Positions 1,423 through 63,127 of a stretch of 64,000 bases of DNA are shown piece after piece. The notes beneath the pieces are model-generated. The model was not told the origin of the DNA. It searched no databases and worked only from the letters and a program-made list of their open reading frames with translations. Source of the DNA: Actinobacteria bacterium HGW-Actinobacteria-7 (lineage in GTDB: Bacteria > Actinomycetota > Coriobacteriia > Anaerosomatales > PHET01); NCBI GenBank assembly GCA_002841275.1, contig PHET01000005.1, positions 62,001-126,000 of the forward strand. The letters are read 5' to 3'. Both the position numbers and the translations under genes were made by a program. Numbering within the stretch: the first letter of the stretch is position 1; each line of letters opens with the position of its first letter.

Positions 1423-2538
1423 TCAGACGAACGAAGCCGGGCCCGATGTCCGGTACGTGTTCCCGCCTTGGCTCTTGGCGGCATACATCGCCTGATCGGC
1501 ACGCTCGAGCAGCTCCTCGGCGGTCGAATCCCCACCCCCGAAGATCGCGACTCCTACCGACGCGGTCACCGGCTGTTCACGCCCGTCCAATACGAACGGG
1601 GCGGCAAGGTGCTCCAAGATGCGCGTGGCGGTGTTGCCGACCTCCGCGCGGTTCGAAACGCTTGGCAGAAGGAGCACGAACTCGTCGCCGCTGATGCGTG
1701 CGAGCGTCTCGTCCTGCCGGACGATTCCGCGGAGCCTCTCGGCAAAACCGGCGAGCAGTGCATCCCCCGCCGCATGGCCAAGGGTATCGTTGACCCGCTT
1801 GAAGCCGTCGATGTCCATGAACAGCACCGCAAGCAAGTGGTCGTGCCGCTTCGCTCCGGCAAGCGCGATCTCAAGCCGGTCCCTGAGCAGTAGCCTGTTG
1901 GGCAACGACGTGAGCGCATCGAGCTTCAACGCCGAGACATCCGAGGCGATCTCGACAACCGACTCGACCTGCCCGTCGGGCCCCAGGAGCGGATACCACG
2001 ACTGCGACAGCCAATTCTCGCACCCGGCAGCTGTCGTCTCGTGCTTGATGCGCGAATGGGGCCTGCCGGTCGAAAAGACCTGATCCACCAAACAGCCGTG
2101 ACATGGTTCGTCGCTTCCCATGATGGCCTTGTAGCACACCTGCCCCACAACATCGGCGGCATCGAGCCCCATCGTATCTACCGCCTTGCCGTTCACGTAC
2201 GACAGCCGCATGTCGTGGTCGAGCGTGACAATGGCCGACGGGTTCTTCTCGTACAACGTCAGAAGCCGCGATTGCTCCGCCCGTAGTTCGCGCGAAGTGC
2301 GCCGGTACTGCGTTAGCGCAGCCTCAGCAACGACTGCCGCAATGGCGGCGAGGACGACCACCACGAGCCGGCTGAACAGGTCGTGGCCTGTGGGAGAGAA
2401 CAGCGCGAACCGAAGATCCACGCCGGTGGTCAGCCAGAGGTGCATGGCATCGATCACGACGTACACACCGGCGAGCCCGATGAAGAGCACGAAGAGCCGA
2501 CCGGGCAGCTCGAATATCTGATTCAGACGACGACTCAT
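1423..2538 (-). CDS. Membrane PAS-GGDEF diguanylate cyclase
   Basis: 371 aa. Two transmembrane helices lie in the first ~90 residues (LFVLFIGLAGVYVVIDAMHLW; LFSRLVVVVLAAIAAVVAEAAL). A PAS domain follows, with a cysteine cluster in its second half (CYKAIMGSDEPCHGCLV), then a GGDEF domain. The active-site loop reads ARISGDEF, an SGDEF variant of GGDEF that is usually compatible with activity. The product-inhibition I-site RxxD is changed to RQDE, so feedback inhibition may be lost. DALTSLPNRLLLRDRL and the downstream DIDGFKRVND metal/GTP site are intact. Start ATG at 2538 gives a normal N terminus; an in-frame start at 2568 is possible. A sigma28-like promoter lies 58 bp upstream. Confidence 0.93.
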   Translation of the reverse strand: MSRRLNQIFELPGRLFVLFIGLAGVYVVIDAMHLWLTTGVDLRFALFSPTGHDLFSRLVVVVLAAIAAVVAEAALTQYRRTSRELRAEQSRLLTLYEKNPSAIVTLDHDMRLSYVNGKAVDTMGLDAADVVGQVCYKAIMGSDEPCHGCLVDQVFSTGRPHSRIKHETTAAGCENWLSQSWYPLLGPDGQVESVVEIASDVSALKLDALTSLPNRLLLRDRLEIALAGAKRHDHLLAVLFMDIDGFKRVNDTLGHAAGDALLAGFAERLRGIVRQDETLARISGDEFVLLLPSVSNRAEVGNTATRILEHLAAPFVLDGREQPVTASVGVAIFGGGDSTAEELLERADQAMYAAKSQGGNTYRTSGPASFV

Positions 2539-2595
2539 GGCCCAACCCTTCTGGCCACGAGCCACCACTCCACACGGCCTGAGATAGTGGAATGT

Positions 2596-2623
2596 GTATC
2601 GGCAGAATCCGCTTCGGGCTTTA
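2596..2623 (-). promoter_or_regulatory. Sigma28-like promoter of the PAS-GGDEF gene
   Basis: On the minus strand TAAA (2623-2620) is followed after 16 nt by GCCGATAC (2603-2596). This matches the FliA/SigD/WhiG-type consensus TAAA-N15/16-GCCGATAA in 4/4 and 7/8 positions. The box ends 57 bp before the ATG at 2538. Similar boxes precede several other genes of this window. Confidence 0.65.
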
Positions 2624-23043: not shown

Positions 23044-24435
23044 CTACGTCTGATCGGGCACCGAAAAGGTGAACGTGGATCCCACACCCACCCGGCTTTC
23101 CACAGTTATCTCACCGCCAAGCATATGTGCGTACTCCCGCGAAAGCGAAAGCCCAAGCCCTGTACCTTCAGGCTTAGCGATACTGGCGGTCGCCAGCTGC
23201 GTGAACGGTTCGAACACGCGAGCCATATCCTCCTCAGGTATTCCGCCGCCAGTGTCTGTCACCGAGAAACACGCCGTGCCGTCGGACACCCGCATATAGC
23301 GCAACTCGATGCGGCCGAAGTCCGTGAACTTGATCGCGTTCCCGATGAGATTCAGCAGAATCTGCTTCACTTTGCCGACATCCGAAGACATGAACGTGTC
23401 GTTGTCGACCGTCTCCGCACGTAGTTCAAGACCTTTGGCCCGAGCGAGCGGTCGGACCATGTCGATGATCTCCTGAGCCAACGCATGGGGATCGAACCGT
23501 TCAACACACAGTTCGACTTTCCCCGCCTCCACCTTGGACAGATCGAGAACGTCGTTGATGAGCGAAAGCAGATGACGGCCACTCCTGTTCACCATGTGAA
23601 GCTGCCGGCTTTGCTCATCTGTCAACGGCCCAGCAAGGCCTTGGGAGAGGATCCCCGAGAATCCAATGACAGAGTTCAGCGGGGTACGCAGCTCGTGGCT
23701 CATGCTCGCAAGAAACTCGCTCTTGGCTCGTGTGGCGGCCTCGAGCTGGGCCGTACGTGCGGCGACCATGGACTCCAGGCTCTCCCGATACGCATCCAGC
23801 TCAAGGTTACGGTCGTTGAGCGAGGAGAGCGTTGTGTTGTACTCGAGAAGGACCATGAACATGACACCCATGATCACCGTGGCGGTCGTGCCCAACCACG
23901 GCTCAACCGGAGCCTGGGCCATCGATGCATCTGAGTACGCTCCCCAGTTGACTGCCGAGAGGGCGCCAACCACACACATGCCCAGCAACCAAAAGTAGCT
24001 CGAGCCACCCACACGTATGAACCGTCTAGGCCGCGACAGACCGACCACTGCCCCGCCGAACATGATCGCGGCTTCTGCGCCGATGGTGAGCGTCGCAAGT
24101 GCCGGCACTATGTAGAAGAACGCGAACACACCGGTTGCAGCGAGTGACGCGATGACAACCACACGCCGCGGCTGGATCCTGACGAAGTACGAGAAGGCGC
24201 CAACCGTGATGAGCGTGACTCCCAGCAGCTGTAACGCTCCGAAGAGCGCCGAGTAGACCTCACTCGAAGCGCCTGAATTGAGTGTGTAGAACACCAGTGA
24301 CACGCTATAGACCAGCCAGCCGGGGGCCATGAGCAGCAAATATCGCTCGTCTCGGCGCCTGGCGAACATCTCGAACGAAAACACGGCTCCGGCAAGACTC
24401 ACCATGAACAGCGCCGACATCGCGTACCCGAGCAT
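23044..24435 (-). CDS. Histidine kinase with multi-helix membrane input domain
   Basis: 463 aa. ATG at 24435 has an ideal AAGGAGG 6 nt upstream. Residues ~1-210 form about seven transmembrane helices with short loops, similar in plan to 7TM/MASE-like input domains, so the signal may be sensed in the membrane or be a small hydrophobic ligand. A short coiled coil (LNDRNLELDAYRESLESMV) leads to HisKA (MSHELRTPLNS) and HATPase (NLIGNAIKFT; DTGGGIPEED; GTGLGLSL). Its catalytic half is close in sequence to that of the kinase at 19514-21682. No receiver domain or adjacent regulator is present. A GCCGATAC box lies 21 bp upstream. Confidence 0.92.
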   Translation of the reverse strand: MLGYAMSALFMVSLAGAVFSFEMFARRRDERYLLLMAPGWLVYSVSLVFYTLNSGASSEVYSALFGALQLLGVTLITVGAFSYFVRIQPRRVVVIASLAATGVFAFFYIVPALATLTIGAEAAIMFGGAVVGLSRPRRFIRVGGSSYFWLLGMCVVGALSAVNWGAYSDASMAQAPVEPWLGTTATVIMGVMFMVLLEYNTTLSSLNDRNLELDAYRESLESMVAARTAQLEAATRAKSEFLASMSHELRTPLNSVIGFSGILSQGLAGPLTDEQSRQLHMVNRSGRHLLSLINDVLDLSKVEAGKVELCVERFDPHALAQEIIDMVRPLARAKGLELRAETVDNDTFMSSDVGKVKQILLNLIGNAIKFTDFGRIELRYMRVSDGTACFSVTDTGGGIPEEDMARVFEPFTQLATASIAKPEGTGLGLSLSREYAHMLGGEITVESRVGVGSTFTFSVPDQT

Positions 24436-24456: not shown

Positions 24457-24484
24457 GTATCGGCAGGCTGCGAGGGGCACTCAA
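24457..24484 (-). promoter_or_regulatory. Sigma28-like promoter of the 7TM histidine kinase
   Basis: GCCGATAC (24464-24457) on the minus strand, with TTGA 16 nt upstream (24484-24481). The -10 box matches 7/8, the -35 only partly. The expected leader would be short (about 15 nt) but still contain the AAGGAGG site. Confidence 0.45.
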
Positions 24485-29345: not shown

Positions 29346-30064
29346 CAGACCAGCTCCTCCGGTGCGACTCGCGACTCGTTGCGCTGGACCGAGACGATTC
29401 GTCCGTCCTGCAGACGGATGACCCGATCGGCCATATCGGCGATCACCGCGTTGTGCGTCACCACGAGCACCGTGCGCCCAAAATCACGCACCGCGCCATC
29501 AAGCGCTCCCAGCACGCGAACGCCCGTCTCGATGTCGAGTGCCCCCGTTGGCTCGTCGCACAGAAGCAACGGAGAGCCTTTGACCAGCCCGCGTGCGATC
29601 GACACCCTCTGTTGCTCGCCTCCGGACAGCTCTGCCGGGAAGTGGTCCGCCCGATCTCCCAGACCGACGCGTTCGAGCACTTCGGCCGTGCGCTTCTGGG
29701 CGTCCGACCCAGTGAGCTCAGCGAGCAGCGCGACGTTCTCGGCAGCCGTGAGAGCTGGAACGAGGTTGAAGAACTGGAAGATGAACCCTACGGTGTGCAG
29801 CCGGTACTCGGTACGCTGGCGTTCGTTGAGCCCTGCCAACGGCGCGCCAAGAACCTCGACCTCCCCAGCAGTAGGCGGCTCAAGAGCGCCCACCAGGTTC
29901 AGCAACGTGGTCTTGCCCGAGCCACTTGGGCCGAGCAGCACGACGAACTCGCCTTGCGGTATCTCGAAGGTGGCGTCAGCTAGCGCCGGGACCTGAGCCG
30001 AGCCCACCCCATAGGTCTTACTGAGCCCACGTGCCCGTATGGCTGCGCTCGGAGTCTCGCTCAT
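29342..30064 (-). CDS. MacB/LolD-type ABC transporter ATPase
   Basis: 240 aa. Walker A GPSGSGKTT, Q-loop in FIFQFFNLVPALTAAENV, signature LSGGEQQRVSIARGLV, Walker B LLLCDEPTGALD and switch histidine VVTHNAV are all present. The FQFFNL and EPTGALD sequences are characteristic of the FtsX-permease-associated (MacB/LolD) subfamily. It powers the permease encoded immediately downstream. First gene of a likely three-gene operon with permease and phosphoesterase. Confidence 0.95.
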   Translation of the reverse strand: MSETPSAAIRARGLSKTYGVGSAQVPALADATFEIPQGEFVVLLGPSGSGKTTLLNLVGALEPPTAGEVEVLGAPLAGLNERQRTEYRLHTVGFIFQFFNLVPALTAAENVALLAELTGSDAQKRTAEVLERVGLGDRADHFPAELSGGEQQRVSIARGLVKGSPLLLCDEPTGALDIETGVRVLGALDGAVRDFGRTVLVVTHNAVIADMADRVIRLQDGRIVSVQRNESRVAPEELVW

Positions 30065-31243: not shown

Positions 31244-32602
31244 TCAGCCCGCCACCACTCGGTTGCGGCCTTCGGCTTTGGCTTGGTAGAGGGCCGCGTC
31301 CGCGCGTGCGATGAACGCATCAGCGTTCTCTCCTCCGCCAGTGAGCGCCAGTGCCGTACCGATACTCACGGTCACGACGCAGCCGCCGCACAGCTCGGTG
31401 GACTCCATACCTTCCACTGCCGCCCGAAGACGTTCGGCAAGGACGCTCAGCTTGCCGGCGTCGGTGTCCGGAGCGACCACCAGCAGCTCCTCTCCACCGA
31501 TTCGACCTACGAGGTCATACTCCCGCACCACGCCGGTCAGCGCGCCTGCCGTCCGCCGCAGCACTTCGTCGCCTGCGGCGTGGCCATACTCATCGTTGAC
31601 GCGTTTGAAGCGGTCGATGTCGATCATCACGACCCCCGTGCCGCCGTGTCCGCTCCGGCGAGCACGCTCGAGTTCACCATGGAGTCGCTCCAGTGTGTGT
31701 TGACGGTTCCACAGCCCGGTCAGCGGATCGATCGTGGCCATGCGCTCCAAGCGCGCGTTCTCGGCCCGCAGCCTGTTTCGAAGCCACCAGATCAGGCCGA
31801 GGACTGTCACCCAGAGCCCGGAGAGTACCGTCGTCGCCACCCACAACAGCGCGATTCTGTTCGACCGTATCGCTCGGCTGAACGCGTCGTACGGCAGCGT
31901 GATGCTCACCGCCCCGCGAATATCGCCGACCTCATAGCCTGTGCTGTGGCAGCGAAGGCAGCTCGCGTCGACAATCAGCGGCCGCATGTAACGGAACACC
32001 TCCGCGGTCTTGGTCATGGTGTCCGTCTCCCAGTACTCAAGTTCACCCCGCTCGAAGGCCCTGAGCCCCTGCCGCTCCCAGGAATCCGGCGCGTTGCTCG
32101 GGTTGACCGGCCGCAGGCTCGTGAGCTTGAAGACCGAGGCCGCATGCGCAGCTACCAACTCCTCGCCGATCTCGCGTGTCATCACAGCCGGATTGCGCAG
32201 GGTGACCGGCGTCCCGTCTGAGAGCCGATCGTCTGGGTTGATCCCAAGCTCGATCAAATACGGATTCGTGAGCGTCGTCGCGCTCTTCTTGACGAGCACA
32301 CCACCCTGATGCGAGTTCCAAGCACGGGCAGCAATGATCAAGTCGGCATACGAACGCGCCTGCTCGAGCGCACCGTCGCGCACCAGACGCTCCGTCCGAG
32401 CCCCGAGCCAGATGAAGATCACGCCCGTGACCAGCGTGATAAGCACGATCAGAATGCCCGCGAAGAACCAGAGGTTCGTCGACCGACTTCGCGGTCGAAC
32501 GCCCGTCACATACGGCGTCGCTTCACGCCCTACGGCCTCGCCCGATGTCACTGACTCATCCACTGACTGACTATCGGCACCTCGCGATTCAGGCGTGAGC
32601 AT
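31244..32602 (-). CDS. Haem-sensor diguanylate cyclase (DUF3365/Tll0287-like + GGDEF)
   Basis: 452 aa. A helix (LWFFAGILIVLITLVTGVIFIWL) precedes a DUF3365-type extracytoplasmic domain (residues ~75-235) that includes one haem c motif, CLRCHSTGYEVGDIRGAVSI. A second helix (IALLWVATTVLSGLWVTVLGLIWWL) leads to GGDEF. The active-site loop is GGEEL (final Phe replaced by Leu) and the I-site REYD is present five residues upstream. Related Tll0287-like domains bind haem and are thought to sense redox state or gases. The ATG at 32602 overlaps the MBL gene stop (TGATG), so translation is coupled. Confidence 0.9.
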   Translation of the reverse strand: MLTPESRGADSQSVDESVTSGEAVGREATPYVTGVRPRSRSTNLWFFAGILIVLITLVTGVIFIWLGARTERLVRDGALEQARSYADLIIAARAWNSHQGGVLVKKSATTLTNPYLIELGINPDDRLSDGTPVTLRNPAVMTREIGEELVAAHAASVFKLTSLRPVNPSNAPDSWERQGLRAFERGELEYWETDTMTKTAEVFRYMRPLIVDASCLRCHSTGYEVGDIRGAVSITLPYDAFSRAIRSNRIALLWVATTVLSGLWVTVLGLIWWLRNRLRAENARLERMATIDPLTGLWNRQHTLERLHGELERARRSGHGGTGVVMIDIDRFKRVNDEYGHAAGDEVLRRTAGALTGVVREYDLVGRIGGEELLVVAPDTDAGKLSVLAERLRAAVEGMESTELCGGCVVTVSIGTALALTGGGENADAFIARADAALYQAKAEGRNRVVAG

Positions 32603-33303
32603 CACAGCGCCGGCGTGCGCCTGAACGCCGCCTCCAGCTGGTCCAGCGTGAACGGTGCTGCATCATGTCCCGTGTAGGTCAGCCGCGGCCGCTTCGTCAG
32701 CAGCTGCCGAATGCTCGCGTCCATCACCGCATCGTCGTGCGCGAACACCCCGCGCCGAGGCTCGGACCGGCTTCTGCCTCCCCCGCCCAGAAGATCGCCT
32801 ACCAGCGCGTCCCCCTCCTCGGTCATCACCGCGAGCGACCCTCGCGTGTGCCCGGGCAAGGGGAACACCACGGCCGACACACCGTAGTCCGACAGCGACG
32901 TCTCGCGGTCGATGACGATGTCGGCCTGGGGACCGGGAGTAGCAGAGCCCTTCGCCTGTCTCCGCCGTATCGCTCGCAGCAAGACCCTGCCAAGAAACCC
33001 GCGTGCGTGCATCTCGTCATCAAAGCCCGCCGAGCATTTCTCCTGGTCACCGGCACCAAGCGCGATGGGGGCACCGGTCGCTTCCCGTAGCGCTTCGGCG
33101 CTGCCCGCATGGTCACCGTGGCCGTGCGTGAGCAGGATGAGGGACACATCTTGAGGAGCTCGCTCCTTCTGTGCCAAGGCCGACAGAATCAGGTTGGCTT
33201 GGTCGCCGATCCCGGTATCGACAAGCACGACCTTCCGCCCAATCAGGGCGTAGGCCATGACCGTGAACGGGCCCCTTTGCACGGGTATGGGCACGAGTTC
33301 CAT
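32602..33303 (-). CDS. Metallo-beta-lactamase fold hydrolase
   Basis: 233 aa, cytosolic. Metal-binding motif THGHGDHAG (HxHxDH) near residue 60, preceded by VLVDTGIG; later ligands lie in FPLPGHTRGSLAV and YTGHD. This is the glyoxalase II-like/YcbL branch of the superfamily; the substrate (thioester, phosphodiester or other) is not determined. ATG at 33303 has GGAGG 7 nt upstream. First gene of the operon with the haem-motif cyclase and the degenerate M48 protein; it could act on a signal molecule or be metabolic. Confidence 0.9.
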   Translation of the reverse strand: MELVPIPVQRGPFTVMAYALIGRKVVLVDTGIGDQANLILSALAQKERAPQDVSLILLTHGHGDHAGSAEALREATGAPIALGAGDQEKCSAGFDDEMHARGFLGRVLLRAIRRRQAKGSATPGPQADIVIDRETSLSDYGVSAVVFPLPGHTRGSLAVMTEEGDALVGDLLGGGGRSRSEPRRGVFAHDDAVMDASIRQLLTKRPRLTYTGHDAAPFTLDQLEAAFRRTPAL

Positions 33304-42817: not shown

Positions 42818-42845
42818 TCAAGCCCGCAAGGGGATAGACCGATAC
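42818..42845 (+). promoter_or_regulatory. Sigma28-like promoter of the GGDEF-HD-GYP gene
   Basis: TCAA (42818-42821), 16 nt, ACCGATAC (42838-42845). Next to the -35 it shares the 7-mer AAGCCCG with the promoter of the PAS-GGDEF gene at 2596-2623. It ends only 13 nt before the annotated TTG start, so either the message is nearly leaderless or translation starts further in. Confidence 0.5.
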
Positions 42846-42858
42846 ATATATACGCAGT

Positions 42859-45000
42859 TTGAATCGAGGGACCGAGCTGTCGACAGTCTCCGCCCACACA
42901 CAGAATCTGAGACGACATGTCAGAGGAATAGCCATTCCCCTGACAGTGGCCTCGGTAGGGCTGTGGCTGGCTCCGCTGGCGCTGCCCTTCAGCGACCCGT
43001 CCATTGAGACCTTTCAGAGGATTCTCCTGATACTCATCGGCGTGGTCACGGTCGCGGCCTGCTTCGCGGCTGCCCGCATCACAATTCGGCATGAGCGACT
43101 CGCGTGGGCCATGATGGGGCTTGGCGCGCTCATGATGCTCGTCGGCGATAGCGTGGCGACCGTATCGAACTCCCCCCTGCGACAGCCTCTCACCATTGCA
43201 GGGCCACTGCCCGGCATTCTCTGGCTTTCTGCCTACGTACCGTATCTGCTTGCCTTCAGCATGTTCCTTCAGTCCAGCCGCATCGGTGGCATCCAGCGTG
43301 TTCGCCGCATCATCGACCTGATACTGCTCATTCTCTTCGTCACGCTCATCATCTTCTCGCTCGTCGTGTTCCCGATATACGGACGCGGAGCCAGCCGTCC
43401 GCTCATCTACACCCTGCCGTACTTCGGCTCGCTGGCAGTGGCATTCAGCCTGCTGACACATATCGCGTCGACACGGCCTCGTCTCCGCCCTTGGCACATG
43501 CCGCTGTTAGCCGCTCTCGTGGTCGTGTGCGCCGGGAGTGTTGGAGATCTGCTCAACAACATCGTCGGCATCCATCTGGGGAACTGGAACACCCTCGGCG
43601 AACTTCCCTGGTTCCTGGGATATGTTCTGGTGGGTGCGGGAGGGCTCGAGCGCCTGCGCCACAGGAGCGATACCCCACGGAACTCTATCGTCTTGCTGGG
43701 AGCCACGATCTCAGGCTGGGGGACGACGCTCTCGGCGTTCTTCTTCGTGATGCTGCCGGTCTTCGTATACGTCGACTCAATCTGGGTGGGCGACAATCTG
43801 GGCGACGCGATGTTCTCGGTTCTGATTGCTGCGGCAGCCATAGCCGCCATCGCCCGCAACCTCGCCCTCGTCGCCGAGAACTCCTCGCTGCGGCTGCGTT
43901 CGGCCACCGACGCGCTGACCGGGCTGTTCAACCACCGGCAGTTCCACGAGCGGCTCGACACCGAACTCATGCGCGCCCAGCGGGCGGAGAGTTCGGTGAG
44001 TGTGGTCGCTATGGACGTCGACGACTTCGACCGGGTCAACAACGTCTACGGACATGCCGCCGGCGACCACCGGCTGCGCCTGATCGCCGACAGACTCACG
44101 GCTGCGGCGCGTGGCTCGGACATCGTGTGTCGGGTGGGTGGCGACGAGTTCGCCATCATCATGCCCGACACCGACCCGCTGGAGGCCTACAAGGTCTGTC
44201 TGCGCCTGCAGGACCACGTCCACGAGCCTGACGACGCCTGCCCCCTGCCGATCTGCATCTCGATCGGGATCGCGAGCCTACCCGAGCACGCCCACACACG
44301 AGACGAGCTGGTGCAGCGGGCGGACGGAGCGCTCTACTGGGCGAAGTTCCACGGCCGCGAACAGGTCGTCCTCTACGATGCAACGCTCGTGCGCTCGCTG
44401 GGGCCCGAACAGCGCATCGCGCGGCTCGAGGAGGAGTCGTACCTGAACATGGTGCAGCTGCTCTCCTCGGCGGTCGATGCACGCGATCCCTACACACAGC
44501 GACACTCGAGGCGCGTGGCCGAACTCGCCGTAGCGCTCGCCCAGGATATCGGGCTGGACGACGAGCGCATCTCGGCCATCGAGACTGCCTCGTTGCTCCA
44601 CGACGTGGGCAAGATCGGGGTCCCCGATGCAATCCTGCGCAACAGCGGTTCGCTCACCGCCGAAGAGTTCGCACTGGTCCGCGAGCACCCCGTGCTCGCC
44701 GCCCGAATCTTGGGCGCTATTCCCCGACGGGAGATCCTGCCCTGGATCGCAGCGCACCACGAACGCTGGGACGGAACCGGCTATCCGGACGGGCTCGCCG
44801 GCGAACAGGCGCCGCTCGAGAGCCGCATCATCGCACTGTGTGATTCGTTCGATGCGATGACCTCGGACAGACCCTATCGAGTTGGGCTCTCTCAGATCGA
44901 GGCCCGAAATGAGATCGTAGCGTGCGCTGGGACACAATTCGACCCCCGGTTGGCCGCGCGATTCGTCGCTGTGCTTGAGTCGCGAGAGGCTGCCGGGTGA
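42859..45000 (+). CDS. Bifunctional membrane GGDEF-HD-GYP protein
   Basis: 713 aa. Residues ~20-330 hold about nine to ten transmembrane helices (MASE-like sensor). The GGDEF domain is intact (CRVGGDEFAIIMPD) with an I-site RGSD, so it should make c-di-GMP under feedback. The HD-GYP domain is also intact (RHSRRVAELAVAL, LLHDVGKIG, AHHERWDGTGYPDG, CDSFDAMTSDRPYR) and should degrade c-di-GMP. The TTG at 42859 gives the longest frame but has no ribosome-binding site. An in-frame CTG at 42877 sits 5 nt after GAGGGA and is a possible non-standard start. Ends 18 bp before a convergent gene. Confidence 0.92.
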   Translation: MNRGTELSTVSAHTQNLRRHVRGIAIPLTVASVGLWLAPLALPFSDPSIETFQRILLILIGVVTVAACFAAARITIRHERLAWAMMGLGALMMLVGDSVATVSNSPLRQPLTIAGPLPGILWLSAYVPYLLAFSMFLQSSRIGGIQRVRRIIDLILLILFVTLIIFSLVVFPIYGRGASRPLIYTLPYFGSLAVAFSLLTHIASTRPRLRPWHMPLLAALVVVCAGSVGDLLNNIVGIHLGNWNTLGELPWFLGYVLVGAGGLERLRHRSDTPRNSIVLLGATISGWGTTLSAFFFVMLPVFVYVDSIWVGDNLGDAMFSVLIAAAAIAAIARNLALVAENSSLRLRSATDALTGLFNHRQFHERLDTELMRAQRAESSVSVVAMDVDDFDRVNNVYGHAAGDHRLRLIADRLTAAARGSDIVCRVGGDEFAIIMPDTDPLEAYKVCLRLQDHVHEPDDACPLPICISIGIASLPEHAHTRDELVQRADGALYWAKFHGREQVVLYDATLVRSLGPEQRIARLEEESYLNMVQLLSSAVDARDPYTQRHSRRVAELAVALAQDIGLDDERISAIETASLLHDVGKIGVPDAILRNSGSLTAEEFALVREHPVLAARILGAIPRREILPWIAAHHERWDGTGYPDGLAGEQAPLESRIIALCDSFDAMTSDRPYRVGLSQIEARNEIVACAGTQFDPRLAARFVAVLESREAAG

Positions 45001-45018: not shown

Positions 45019-45597
45019 CTACCCCCAGCGGACGTCGTAGACAAGCTCAGGACTAGCGATCATCCCGGCCTCCCAACTCCGTTCCGTGACATGCACGTGG
45101 TTGCCGCCCATACGCCCCAGAGCGCGTTCAGTCCATCCGCAGTGCCAAGGAGCAATGAACGAACTCTCCCCCAGCCCCGTGACGTGGATTGCACCGCCGT
45201 TCTGCGCAGCAGCTATCTCGGTTGTAGTGCTCACGGCGTTCGAGTAGACCGACGCCAAGACGGTCCCGCCACGCTTGAACGCCTGGAGGGGCGATGCATA
45301 GCGGGCGAAGATGCTGAAGATCCCGTCAAGCATAGCATCGGCCTGACACGCCCCGCCCTCGCGTAGTTGGGATGCCGCCACTATCCGGTCACCGTTGAAT
45401 TGAGCGTGAACCAGCGCCTCGAAGACCCTACCATCGACCGCCACCGGAAAGCTTGCCGTCGATCCGATGTTGCGGATGAGAACTCGGTCTTCTACCAGCA
45501 ACATATCGAGCAGCTGATTCCACGCATCCTCGCCGTACCGTCTTCGGATGTAATCGTGTCCGGCCTTGGCTACTGCGCTCTTCACGGTGACGCCCAT
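45019..45597 (-). CDS. TIGR02265 (DUF2378)-like protein of unknown function
   Basis: 192 aa, soluble. ATG at 45597 follows GGGGGGATCC. The N-terminal sequence GVTVKSAVAKAGHDYIRRRYGEDAWNQLLDML resembles the TIGR02265/DUF2378 and V4R/haem-NO-binding-like families, in which a helical N terminus precedes a ligand-binding alpha/beta domain. The C-terminal half (GGAIHVTGLGESSF, APWHCGWTERAL) is consistent with that fold. Family assignment is from pattern memory and uncertain. A GCCGATAT box upstream groups it with signalling genes of this window. Divergent from the transglutaminase-like lipoprotein gene. Confidence 0.6.
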   Translation of the reverse strand: MGVTVKSAVAKAGHDYIRRRYGEDAWNQLLDMLLVEDRVLIRNIGSTASFPVAVDGRVFEALVHAQFNGDRIVAASQLREGGACQADAMLDGIFSIFARYASPLQAFKRGGTVLASVYSNAVSTTTEIAAAQNGGAIHVTGLGESSFIAPWHCGWTERALGRMGGNHVHVTERSWEAGMIASPELVYDVRWG

Positions 45598-45635: not shown

Positions 45636-45663
45636 ATATCGGCAGGGGTTCGTTGCTCCACAA
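45636..45663 (-). promoter_or_regulatory. GCCGATAT box upstream of the TIGR02265-like gene
   Basis: GCCGATAT (45643-45636) on the minus strand, 38 bp before the ATG; the -35 position 16 nt upstream reads TTGT, a poor match. Probable weak or activator-dependent sigma28-like promoter. Confidence 0.4.
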
Positions 45664-46906: not shown

Positions 46907-46934
46907 TGAAGGACACGGCACTGGTTGCCGATAG
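46907..46934 (+). promoter_or_regulatory. Sigma28-like promoter of the 51-aa membrane protein
   Basis: TGAA (46907-46910), 16 nt, GCCGATAG (46927-46934), ending 41 bp before the ATG at 46976. The -10 matches 7/8 and the -35 matches 3/4 of TAAA-N16-GCCGATAA. Confidence 0.5.
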
Positions 46935-46975: not shown

Positions 46976-47131
46976 ATGCCGATCACAGACGACCCCCTCA
47001 CGCAGATTCAGCGCGAAGCACTGTGGAAGTGGCGTTGGCTTGGCTGGCGCAACAGCACTCCGGCGTTCAAGGTGAGCATCGCCGTGCTCGCACTAGTGGC
47101 GATTGCGATGTCGATACTCGCGGTTCAGTGA
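46976..47131 (+). CDS. Small single-helix membrane protein
   Basis: 51 aa. The ATG at 46976 has GGGAG 8 nt upstream. A polar, Trp-rich N terminus (REALWKWRWLGWRNSTPAF) leads to one C-terminal transmembrane helix (VSIAVLALVAIAMSILAV). No family recognised. Support comes from the ribosome-binding site, the membrane helix and an upstream sigma28-like promoter. A longer overlapping frame (46897-47181) has no such features and is taken as spurious. Confidence 0.55.
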   Translation: MPITDDPLTQIQREALWKWRWLGWRNSTPAFKVSIAVLALVAIAMSILAVQ

Positions 47132-54827: not shown

Positions 54828-54920
54828 TGGCGGAGAGGGAGGGATTCGAACCCTCGTAACGGGGGATACCCGCTAAACAGTTTTCGAGACTGCCGCATTC
54901 AACCACTCTGCCACCTCTCC
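54828..54920 (-). tRNA. tRNA-Ser (anticodon CGA), CCA encoded
   Basis: Minus strand: acceptor stem GGAGAGG / CCTCTCC, discriminator G, then genomic CCA (54830-54828). The anticodon arm reads GGCAGTCTCGAAAACTG with anticodon CGA. A long variable arm (GCGGGTATCCCCCGT) is typical of a class II serine tRNA. T-arm GAGGGTTCGAATCCCTC is standard. It decodes UCG. Confidence 0.95.
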
Positions 54921-61784: not shown

Positions 61785-63068
61785 TTACGCCGTGGCGTAC
61801 GCCTGACGTCGGGGAAGGAGGATGCCGCGCGAATCGAGCAGACTGACCGTGACCTCGACGACCTGAGGGTCAAACTGCGATCCGCTCCCGTTGACCAGCT
61901 CTTGGCGAGCTTTCGTGAGGGTGAGAGCGTTGCGGTACGAGCGGTCTGTGGTCATGGCATCCAGCGCATCTGCGACGCAGAGAATCCTGGACAGTAGCGG
62001 AATCTCCTCGGCCGCAAGGCCGGATGGGTAGCCAGCCCCGTCCCAGCGCTCGTGGTGATGACGGACCACCGGGACTATGTCTGACAGGAACGGAGCCATC
62101 TCGATGATGCGAGCGCCGATCTCGCTGTGCTCACGGATCGAAGCTGTCTCCTCGGCGGTCAATCTGCCCGGCTTCAACAACGCGTACTCTGAGACACCGA
62201 TCTTGCCGATGTCGTGCAGAAGCCCCGCACGCTCCAGAGATCCGAGTTCCTCGCTGAGGCCCATGTAGCGGGCGATTGCACAGGCGTAGTCCGAGACGTT
62301 CAGCGAGTGATGCGCGGTATAGGTGTCGCGGGCGTCCACCGCTGCCACGAGTGCTTGCAGGGTACCCACGCTGTGCTCCTCGAGTTCGCGCAGCGACACC
62401 TTGAGGCGCCGATCGAGGGCGTTGATGACGCGCTGGTCTTCGTCGAGGGCTTCCTCGGTGCGCGTGATAAGCCTTCTGAGCATCACGATTGCGACAGTAG
62501 CGCCAATAAGCACTACCAGCACGAATACCGTGACGGTCAGCACGATCGTAGGCAGTACCACTCCGATCGCCCGGTGACCGCGGACCACACCGTACGGCTT
62601 GCCACCGCTTGCGCTTGTCAGAGGACCGACCGTCATGAACTCCCAGTCGCCACACTCACAGCGCGCGATATACGCGGAGCTCTTCCCCTTGTCCAAGGCA
62701 AGCCGCTCGTACTTGTCCAGCGAACGGTCCCGCGGCTGATCGCTTCCGGCACTCGCGTGGACCCGACCGCGCGAGTCCCGAACGGTGATAGAGGCGAATG
62801 AGCCCAGGCGCACGAGCGCCTGAACATCGCCTTGCAGGATCTTGGTTGCCGCCGGGTCGTCAAACCGGCTTGGGGATCCGATGCTGCCCGCGACCATCCC
62901 GTTGAGGCCCGACGTCATAGACCGGCCGAAGCTCTTCACTAGGACGCCGCTGATCCCGACCGCGATAACCAGCGCGACAACCAACGCAGGAACGAGGATA
63001 TAGACAAGACCAAGGCGTCTGAACGACCTCAAAACGCTATAGGTGCGCTCGTCCAATCGCCGTGACAC
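61785..63068 (-). CDS. Membrane HD-GYP c-di-GMP phosphodiesterase
   Basis: 427 aa. N-terminal helix (LVYILVPALVVALVIAVGISGVLV), a ~115-residue extracytoplasmic Cache-like sensor (ASITVRDSRGRVHASAGS; ARCECGDWEFMTVGPL), a second helix (IVLTVTVFVLVVLIGATVAIVML), a linker coiled coil and a full HD-GYP domain: HHSLNVSDYACAIARYMG, LLHDIGKIG, HHHERWDGAGYPSG, ADALDAMTTDRSYRN. It should hydrolyse c-di-GMP in response to an external signal. GTG start at 63068. A sigma28-like promoter lies about 30 bp upstream. Confidence 0.93.
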   Translation of the reverse strand: MSRRLDERTYSVLRSFRRLGLVYILVPALVVALVIAVGISGVLVKSFGRSMTSGLNGMVAGSIGSPSRFDDPAATKILQGDVQALVRLGSFASITVRDSRGRVHASAGSDQPRDRSLDKYERLALDKGKSSAYIARCECGDWEFMTVGPLTSASGGKPYGVVRGHRAIGVVLPTIVLTVTVFVLVVLIGATVAIVMLRRLITRTEEALDEDQRVINALDRRLKVSLRELEEHSVGTLQALVAAVDARDTYTAHHSLNVSDYACAIARYMGLSEELGSLERAGLLHDIGKIGVSEYALLKPGRLTAEETASIREHSEIGARIIEMAPFLSDIVPVVRHHHERWDGAGYPSGLAAEEIPLLSRILCVADALDAMTTDRSYRNALTLTKARQELVNGSGSQFDPQVVEVTVSLLDSRGILLPRRQAYATA

Positions 63069-63099: not shown

Positions 63100-63127
63100 T
63101 TATCGGCAGAACCGCTGGAGCCCATTA
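63100..63127 (-). promoter_or_regulatory. Sigma28-like promoter of the HD-GYP gene
   Basis: TAAT (63127-63124), 16 nt, GCCGATAA (63107-63100): an exact 8/8 match to the sigma28 -10 consensus and 3/4 to TAAA, with the same 16-nt spacing as the other boxes of this window. It ends 31 bp before the GTG at 63068. Confidence 0.6.

Follow-up and report, generated by a model that had tools for sequence, protein, structure and literature searches.

The sigma factor WhiG and its anti-sigma factor RsiG form the only known sigma/anti-sigma pair that is controlled by c-di-GMP (PMC8325347). The sigma28/WhiG promoter consensus consists of a TAAA-like -35 element and a -10 element, GCCGATAA, with about 15-16 nt between the two (PMC8325347). 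In Rubrobacter, starts have been mapped for 12 promoters, of which three belong to the pilus cluster and five precede DGC/PDE genes; the authors already suggested a feedback (PMC8325347). RsiG homologues have been reported only in Actinobacteria, and those with a single motif only in Rubrobacteria and Thermoleophilia; the Coriobacteriia are not mentioned (PMC8325347). The Coriobacteriia are reported to be without flagellar gene sets (PMC10746217). The cultured Anaerosomatales (Anaerosoma, Parvivirga) are non-motile rods with pili-like appendages, which in one strain appear only with a solid iron mineral (PMC9686372). The open-access literature that we searched gave no report of RsiG or of WhiG from Coriobacteriia, an absence which is not proof of novelty.

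Here, we compare with these systems a set of boxes in a genome of the Anaerosomatales (2.53 Mb, 38 contigs). The window is the whole stretch of 64,000 nucleotides that was analysed, C4:62001-126000. Its genes were called with a model of codon usage derived from the window itself, which gave 47 genes and 91% coding sequence.

Flagellar-type boxes in the window and the genome

Six boxes are present in the window at the positions named by a sequence-only reading of this DNA, and all of them are intergenic, each facing a gene. A box is 27 nt long; the coordinates first given for it included one extra flanking base. The boxes, the genes behind them and a possible seventh box are as follows.

1423..2568, minus strand: PAS-GGDEF diguanylate cyclase, 381 aa, 28 bp from its box (Pfam GGDEF 6.6e-47, PAS_4 5.4e-11)
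2597..2623, minus strand: predicted WhiG-type promoter TAAAG-N15-GCCGATA, before the PAS-GGDEF gene
23044..24435, minus strand: histidine kinase (HisKA, HATPase_c), 22 bp from its box
24458..24484, minus strand: predicted WhiG-type promoter TTGAG-N15-GCCGATA, before the histidine kinase gene
31244-32605, minus strand: Tll0287-GGDEF gene, missed by the codon-usage gene caller
32572..32598, minus strand: possible seventh box TCACG-N15-GCCGATA, uncertain, within the first codons of the Tll0287-GGDEF gene
42818..42844, plus strand: predicted WhiG-type promoter TCAAG-N15-ACCGATA, before the GGDEF-HD-GYP gene
42946..45000, plus strand: GGDEF-HD-GYP c-di-GMP enzyme, 684 aa (Pfam GGDEF 6.2e-40, HD_5 2.6e-38 for the 713-aa ORF)
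45019..45597, minus strand: 192-aa protein without Pfam or NCBIfam match, 39 bp from its box
45637..45663, minus strand: predicted WhiG-type promoter TTGTG-N15-GCCGATA, the weakest -35 among the six
46907..46933, plus strand: predicted WhiG-type promoter TGAAG-N15-GCCGATA, before the 51-aa protein gene
46976..47131, plus strand: 51-aa protein with one likely membrane helix, 42 bp from its box (no Pfam match)
61785..63056, minus strand: HD-GYP phosphodiesterase, 423 aa, 44 bp from its box (Pfam HD_5 2.3e-34)
63101..63127, minus strand: predicted WhiG-type promoter TAATG-N15-GCCGATA, before the HD-GYP gene

The upstream position of the boxes stands, although their distance to the gene, put at 13-57 bp before, comes to 22-101 bp with our own start calls and varies with the choice of start codon. 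An alternative longer start of the histidine kinase, at 24480, would overlap its box, and the start codon of the GGDEF-HD-GYP gene is uncertain, as its ORF is open from 42859. The label "TIGR02265-like", once attached to the product of 45019-45597, finds no match in Pfam or NCBIfam to bear it out. The match at 32572-32598, with an in-frame GTG just downstream of its -10, could represent a seventh box or have arisen by chance. The gene in which it lies, 31244-32605, is translationally coupled to a metallo-beta-lactamase-fold gene. Elsewhere in the window, a stretch without called protein genes holds a tRNA gene at 54831-54920 (minus strand).

All six -35 pentamers (TAAAG, TTGAG, TCAAG, TTGTG, TGAAG and TAATG) begin with T at the 16-nt spacing, as noticed from the first; what had been overlooked is the G fixed at their fifth base. 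Otherwise the -35 is loose, as in TTGTG at 45637. The -10 reads RCCGATA in 6/6, so the common form is TNNNG-N15-RCCGATA, and the eighth base of the -10 is not fixed. The 16-nt spacing itself holds for the six window boxes but is not strict genome-wide, since the box of the major pilin, TAAAG-N14-GCCGATA, is spaced one base shorter. The AAGCCCG found beside two of the -35 boxes is spacer sequence and variable elsewhere, which rules it out as part of the motif.

Could these matches be due to chance, or be vegetative (RpoD) promoters with a fortuitous GCCGATA? RCCGATA is a common sequence, most T-N19-GCCGATA matches in the genome are intragenic, and the genome-wide counts of the forward and reversed patterns stand only modestly apart (107 versus 80 for T-N19-GCCGATA; 43 versus 27 for T-N19-ACCGATA). 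Within the window, RCCGATA occurs 21 times against 9.6 expected, and T-N19-RCCGATA nine times, where dinucleotide shuffles predict 1.9 and none of 100 reaches nine; the extra matches at 29434 and 58320 are intragenic. The RCCGATA sites that are intergenic, gene-facing and within 150 bp of a start are, by our own gene calls, exactly six, the same six as before.

Placement across the genome, which was judged from pattern searches, retrieved stretches and our own codon-usage gene caller (it missed at least one real window gene, 31244-32605), separates the boxes from the background more clearly. Among the matches listed, 27 are intergenic and face a gene within 150 bp, and 101 are intragenic; a -35 of the class TN[AG][AT]G, which was defined after inspection of the matches, occurs in 17/27 of the former versus 8/101 of the latter (Fisher P=7e-9). 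Without the six window boxes the figures, again among the matches listed, are 11/21 and 8/99 (P=1.1e-5). The -35 bases 3, 4 and 5 are each enriched singly (P about 4e-5 to 7e-5), and the genome-wide consensus is TCA[AT]G-N15-GCCGATA. The association with GGDEF genes that the sequence-only reading expected is likewise found: the genome has 23 such genes, and four of the 27 gene-facing boxes lead into one, versus 0.25 expected (P=9e-5). Outside the window the enrichment is weaker, with two observed versus 0.17 expected (P=0.012), and most of the 23 are without a clear box of their own.

Conservation was followed in 198 Coriobacteriia genomes, 61 from this order and 137 from other orders, and at orthologous genes it was judged on the pilB operon. 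At the head of this small operon, T[ACT]AAG-N15-[AG]CCGATA occurs in 26 of 30 orthologue loci, roughly 640-800 bp upstream of pilB; both boxes keep their spacing while the spacers between them are unrelated. A 27th locus reads GACGATA at the -10. The strict box T[AC]AAG-N15-GCCGATA has 222 matches in the 61 genomes, where composition alone predicts about 12, the baseline used here; a reversed-pattern control, with 0 in all 61 genomes, is probably faulty and was set aside. Of the strict boxes, 113 were examined, and 81 of these lie in intergenic DNA and point at a gene no more than 250 bp away. The first genes behind strict boxes include, by sequence pattern, 25 pilin-like proteins and five pilB operons, and 11 of the 20 other downstream proteins scanned with Pfam are c-di-GMP enzymes (GGDEF, GGDEF-EAL or GAF-HD-GYP). 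The shuffles, the genome-wide intergenic test and the pilB footprinting rule out chance or composition, and we regard the whole alternative, vegetative promoters included, as very improbable.

WhiG, RsiG and the other sigma factors

The boxes presuppose a factor that reads them, and a FliA/WhiG homologue is indeed encoded. The genome has a single WhiG gene, C26:129164-129838, whose product scores above the cut-off of the equivalog NF004935 (372.7 bits, cut-off 343) and of FliA_WhiG (279 bits, cut-off 189.6). It lies in the order dprA-trmFO-xerC-whiG-response regulator-rpsB-tsf, and its nearest named relatives are from Coriobacteriia and other actinobacterial MAGs. Streptomyces whiG is located near the same set of genes. 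FlhA was not found in the genome, which rules out a flagellar sigma28 regulon.

RsiG is encoded at C26:56506-56712 and was located by a Pfam family search (PF22802, 67.4 bits versus a cut-off of 27). A degenerate DNA pattern for the RsiG motif had given eight matches, RsiG not among them, because the pattern required Gln where the protein has His. RsiG is 106 aa long, with one motif, EQRVSYRRRVLHGKID, in full fit to E(X)3S(X)2R(X)3[Q/H](X)3D; the fourth motif residue is H. Its closest solved structures in the PDB are Streptomyces and Rubrobacter RsiG, and the motif is intact in 30/30 relatives examined. No WhiG box was seen at whiG or rsiG in the stretches read.

Both proteins are characteristic of the order. 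RsiG is found in 60/61 of its genomes versus 0/137 other Coriobacteriia, and WhiG above the cut-off in 59/61 versus 0/137. Such a co-distribution may reflect one gain or loss, so that a P value drawn from it would not count independent events.

Another alternative sigma factor of the same genome, the SigB/SigF-family protein encoded at C14:45343-45996, might read the boxes instead of WhiG. Promoters of SigB/F are GTTT-type with a GGGTAT-like -10. The box here fits the flagellar/WhiG consensus, TAAA and GCCGATAA (PMC8325347), and the SigB-like protein falls below the FliA_WhiG cut-off (128 versus 189.6 bits). We give this assignment hardly any credence; judging by sequence, the six boxes are very likely promoters for WhiG. 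At L054:4842-6012:+, the SigB/SigF-family gene adjoins an RsbW-like anti-sigma gene. The genome also encodes a sporulation-type SigH-like sigma factor (L004:1138-1761:-), in a lineage that is apparently non-sporulating.

Predicted regulon and the riboswitch leaders

The best boxes genome-wide number 17, and the following targets are drawn from these and others. Among c-di-GMP genes, boxes precede an operon of two PAS-GGDEF proteins, an HD-GYP protein gene outside the window, a PocR-GAF-HD-GYP gene and, with a weaker -35 (TCAAA), a dCache-PAS-GGDEF-EAL gene. Histidine kinase genes, in and beyond the window, are preceded by boxes as well. On the side of the cell surface, boxes stand before a prepilin gene, a glycosyltransferase gene and the genes of secreted NIDO-fn3 and Ig-like proteins, and the major pilin gene with its box adjoins pilB-like and pilC-like genes and a prepilin peptidase. 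The pilB operon is headed by a box, and its ATPase carries an MshEN domain, which is a known c-di-GMP-binding domain. There are two pilB-type ATPases with MshEN domains (L039:3691-5361:+ and L441:9020-10690:+); c-di-GMP may therefore act directly on pilus extension too. From these targets, the WhiG regulon would have a role in piliation and surface life.

The mechanism that we propose is a WhiG-RsiG switch controlled by c-di-GMP, with the boxes read by the genome's single WhiG. RsiG, with its single motif, would most likely be a homodimer which, when bound to c-di-GMP, sequesters WhiG, as in Rubrobacter. At low c-di-GMP, WhiG would be free, and free WhiG would transcribe the pilB operon, the pilins, surface and secreted proteins, sensor kinases, and c-di-GMP synthases and phosphodiesterases. 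Because these predicted targets include the enzymes that make and degrade c-di-GMP, the switch would feed back on its own signal, the cyclases presumably closing it and the phosphodiesterases keeping it open. As a whole, this reading is in our judgement highly probable. The sequence-only reading had its outline, a sigma28/WhiG-type promoter set driving c-di-GMP turnover, which the WhiG gene and the box enrichment support; it missed RsiG, the type IV pilus core and the riboswitch, and it made no connection to the published Rubrobacter case (PMC8325347).

One could also suppose that WhiG reads the boxes while RsiG does not respond to c-di-GMP, in which case the c-di-GMP genes would simply belong to a surface-life regulon and there would be no feedback. 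GGDEF genes are in fact a minority of the targets. The residues through which RsiG binds c-di-GMP in solved complexes (PMC8325347), however, are all preserved here and unchanged in 30/30 relatives, and of the orders of the class that were sampled this one alone has RsiG and WhiG. We hold this to be improbable, and retain a switch in which RsiG responds to c-di-GMP.

A second layer of control is suggested by the leaders of some transcripts. Where leaders are long (about 176-235 nt), the loci were searched against Rfam, and a c-di-GMP-I aptamer (RF01051 or RF03167) lies between box and gene at 13 loci of relatives and in this genome. Here, outside the window, the box is at C4:24559-24585:-, the aptamer at L185:2433-2507:- and the gene start at L185:2424; the aptamer is of the c-di-GMP-I-GGC type (RF03167, 74.3 bits versus a cut-off of 59), and the gene product is a secreted, GH26-like protein of 422 aa. 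Box and aptamer are separated by 38-44 nt in the relatives and by 52 nt in this genome, and the aptamer core AAAGGCA, invariant among the 13 relatives, is also found here. The 13 relatives are all from a single family, f2, and a similar small secreted protein is common to 12 of them, so their loci are not independent; this genome belongs to family f1, and its riboswitch gene product differs from the f2 protein. No riboswitch was found within the window, nor in 40 other loci, most of them with WhiG boxes. For a WhiG-type promoter followed by a c-di-GMP riboswitch, we found no paper in the open-access literature.

The Shine-Dalgarno region of the relatives (GGGGCGUUC or GGGGCGAUC) has its complement in the 5' strand of P1 (CCCCGA or CUCCCGA), and cognate strands bind each other better than shuffled combinations do (P=0.0013 with 13 sequences; P=0.006 with nine representatives). 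The pairing of P1 and the anti-Shine-Dalgarno pairing are mutually exclusive, and c-di-GMP should thus free the ribosome site in these relatives. In this genome an extended P1 and the Shine-Dalgarno sequence overlap, and control may therefore have a different sign.

With a riboswitch between WhiG box and gene, c-di-GMP may control one transcript twice, and in a subset of WhiG transcripts the leader would exert this second control after initiation. More specifically, c-di-GMP might act with opposite sign at the two steps, RsiG blocking initiation and P1 formation freeing the Shine-Dalgarno sequence. This is a tentative proposal, whose chances we put a little short of even. If it is true, the surface protein would be made only at intermediate c-di-GMP levels, or in a pulse, the latter when c-di-GMP rises after the transcript is already made. 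The combination, on a single transcript, of a sigma factor gated by c-di-GMP with a c-di-GMP riboswitch would then make up a simple natural range-sensing circuit for the level of a second messenger.

Comparison with known systems

The only known c-di-GMP-controlled sigma/anti-sigma pair would thus extend to an order of mostly uncultured, non-flagellated bacteria. The boxes provide a ready list of predicted target promoters, and would account for a flagellar-type promoter that persists without flagella.

The attack-phase FliA regulon of Bdellovibrio resembles the present case in that a sigma28-type factor has turned into a global regulator, and there a c-di-GMP riboswitch RNA (merRNA) and DGC genes are expressed in the same phase; merRNA, however, is without a conserved downstream gene (PMC3627812), and the reported RsiG homologues are from Actinobacteria alone (PMC8325347). 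In Clostridioides difficile, too, a single circuit includes both a c-di-GMP-I riboswitch and the sigma28-type factor SigD, and type IV pili are under c-di-GMP control (PMC11477304). Its riboswitch is upstream of the operon that encodes SigD, whereas here it lies downstream of a WhiG-type promoter, on the target transcript, and the sigma factor here has a predicted c-di-GMP-dependent anti-sigma factor of its own.

The Streptomyces RsiG-(c-di-GMP)2-WhiG complex shares with this genome the WhiG equivalog and the RsiG family. Streptomyces RsiG, however, has two motifs and is a monomer, with WhiG serving spore formation (PMC8325347), whereas here there is one motif, with pili and c-di-GMP enzymes among the predicted targets. 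The (RsiG)2-(c-di-GMP)2-WhiG system of Rubrobacter radiotolerans also combines a single-motif RsiG and WhiG with the lack of flagella, and it has flagellar-type promoters before type IV pilus and DGC/PDE genes (PMC8325347). The two differ in class and in the fourth RsiG motif residue, H here, and the predicted regulon here adds sensor kinases, Ig-like and carbohydrate-active secreted proteins and c-di-GMP-I riboswitch leaders. In its core this is a known switch, newly predicted throughout an order, and the riboswitch layer is the new part.
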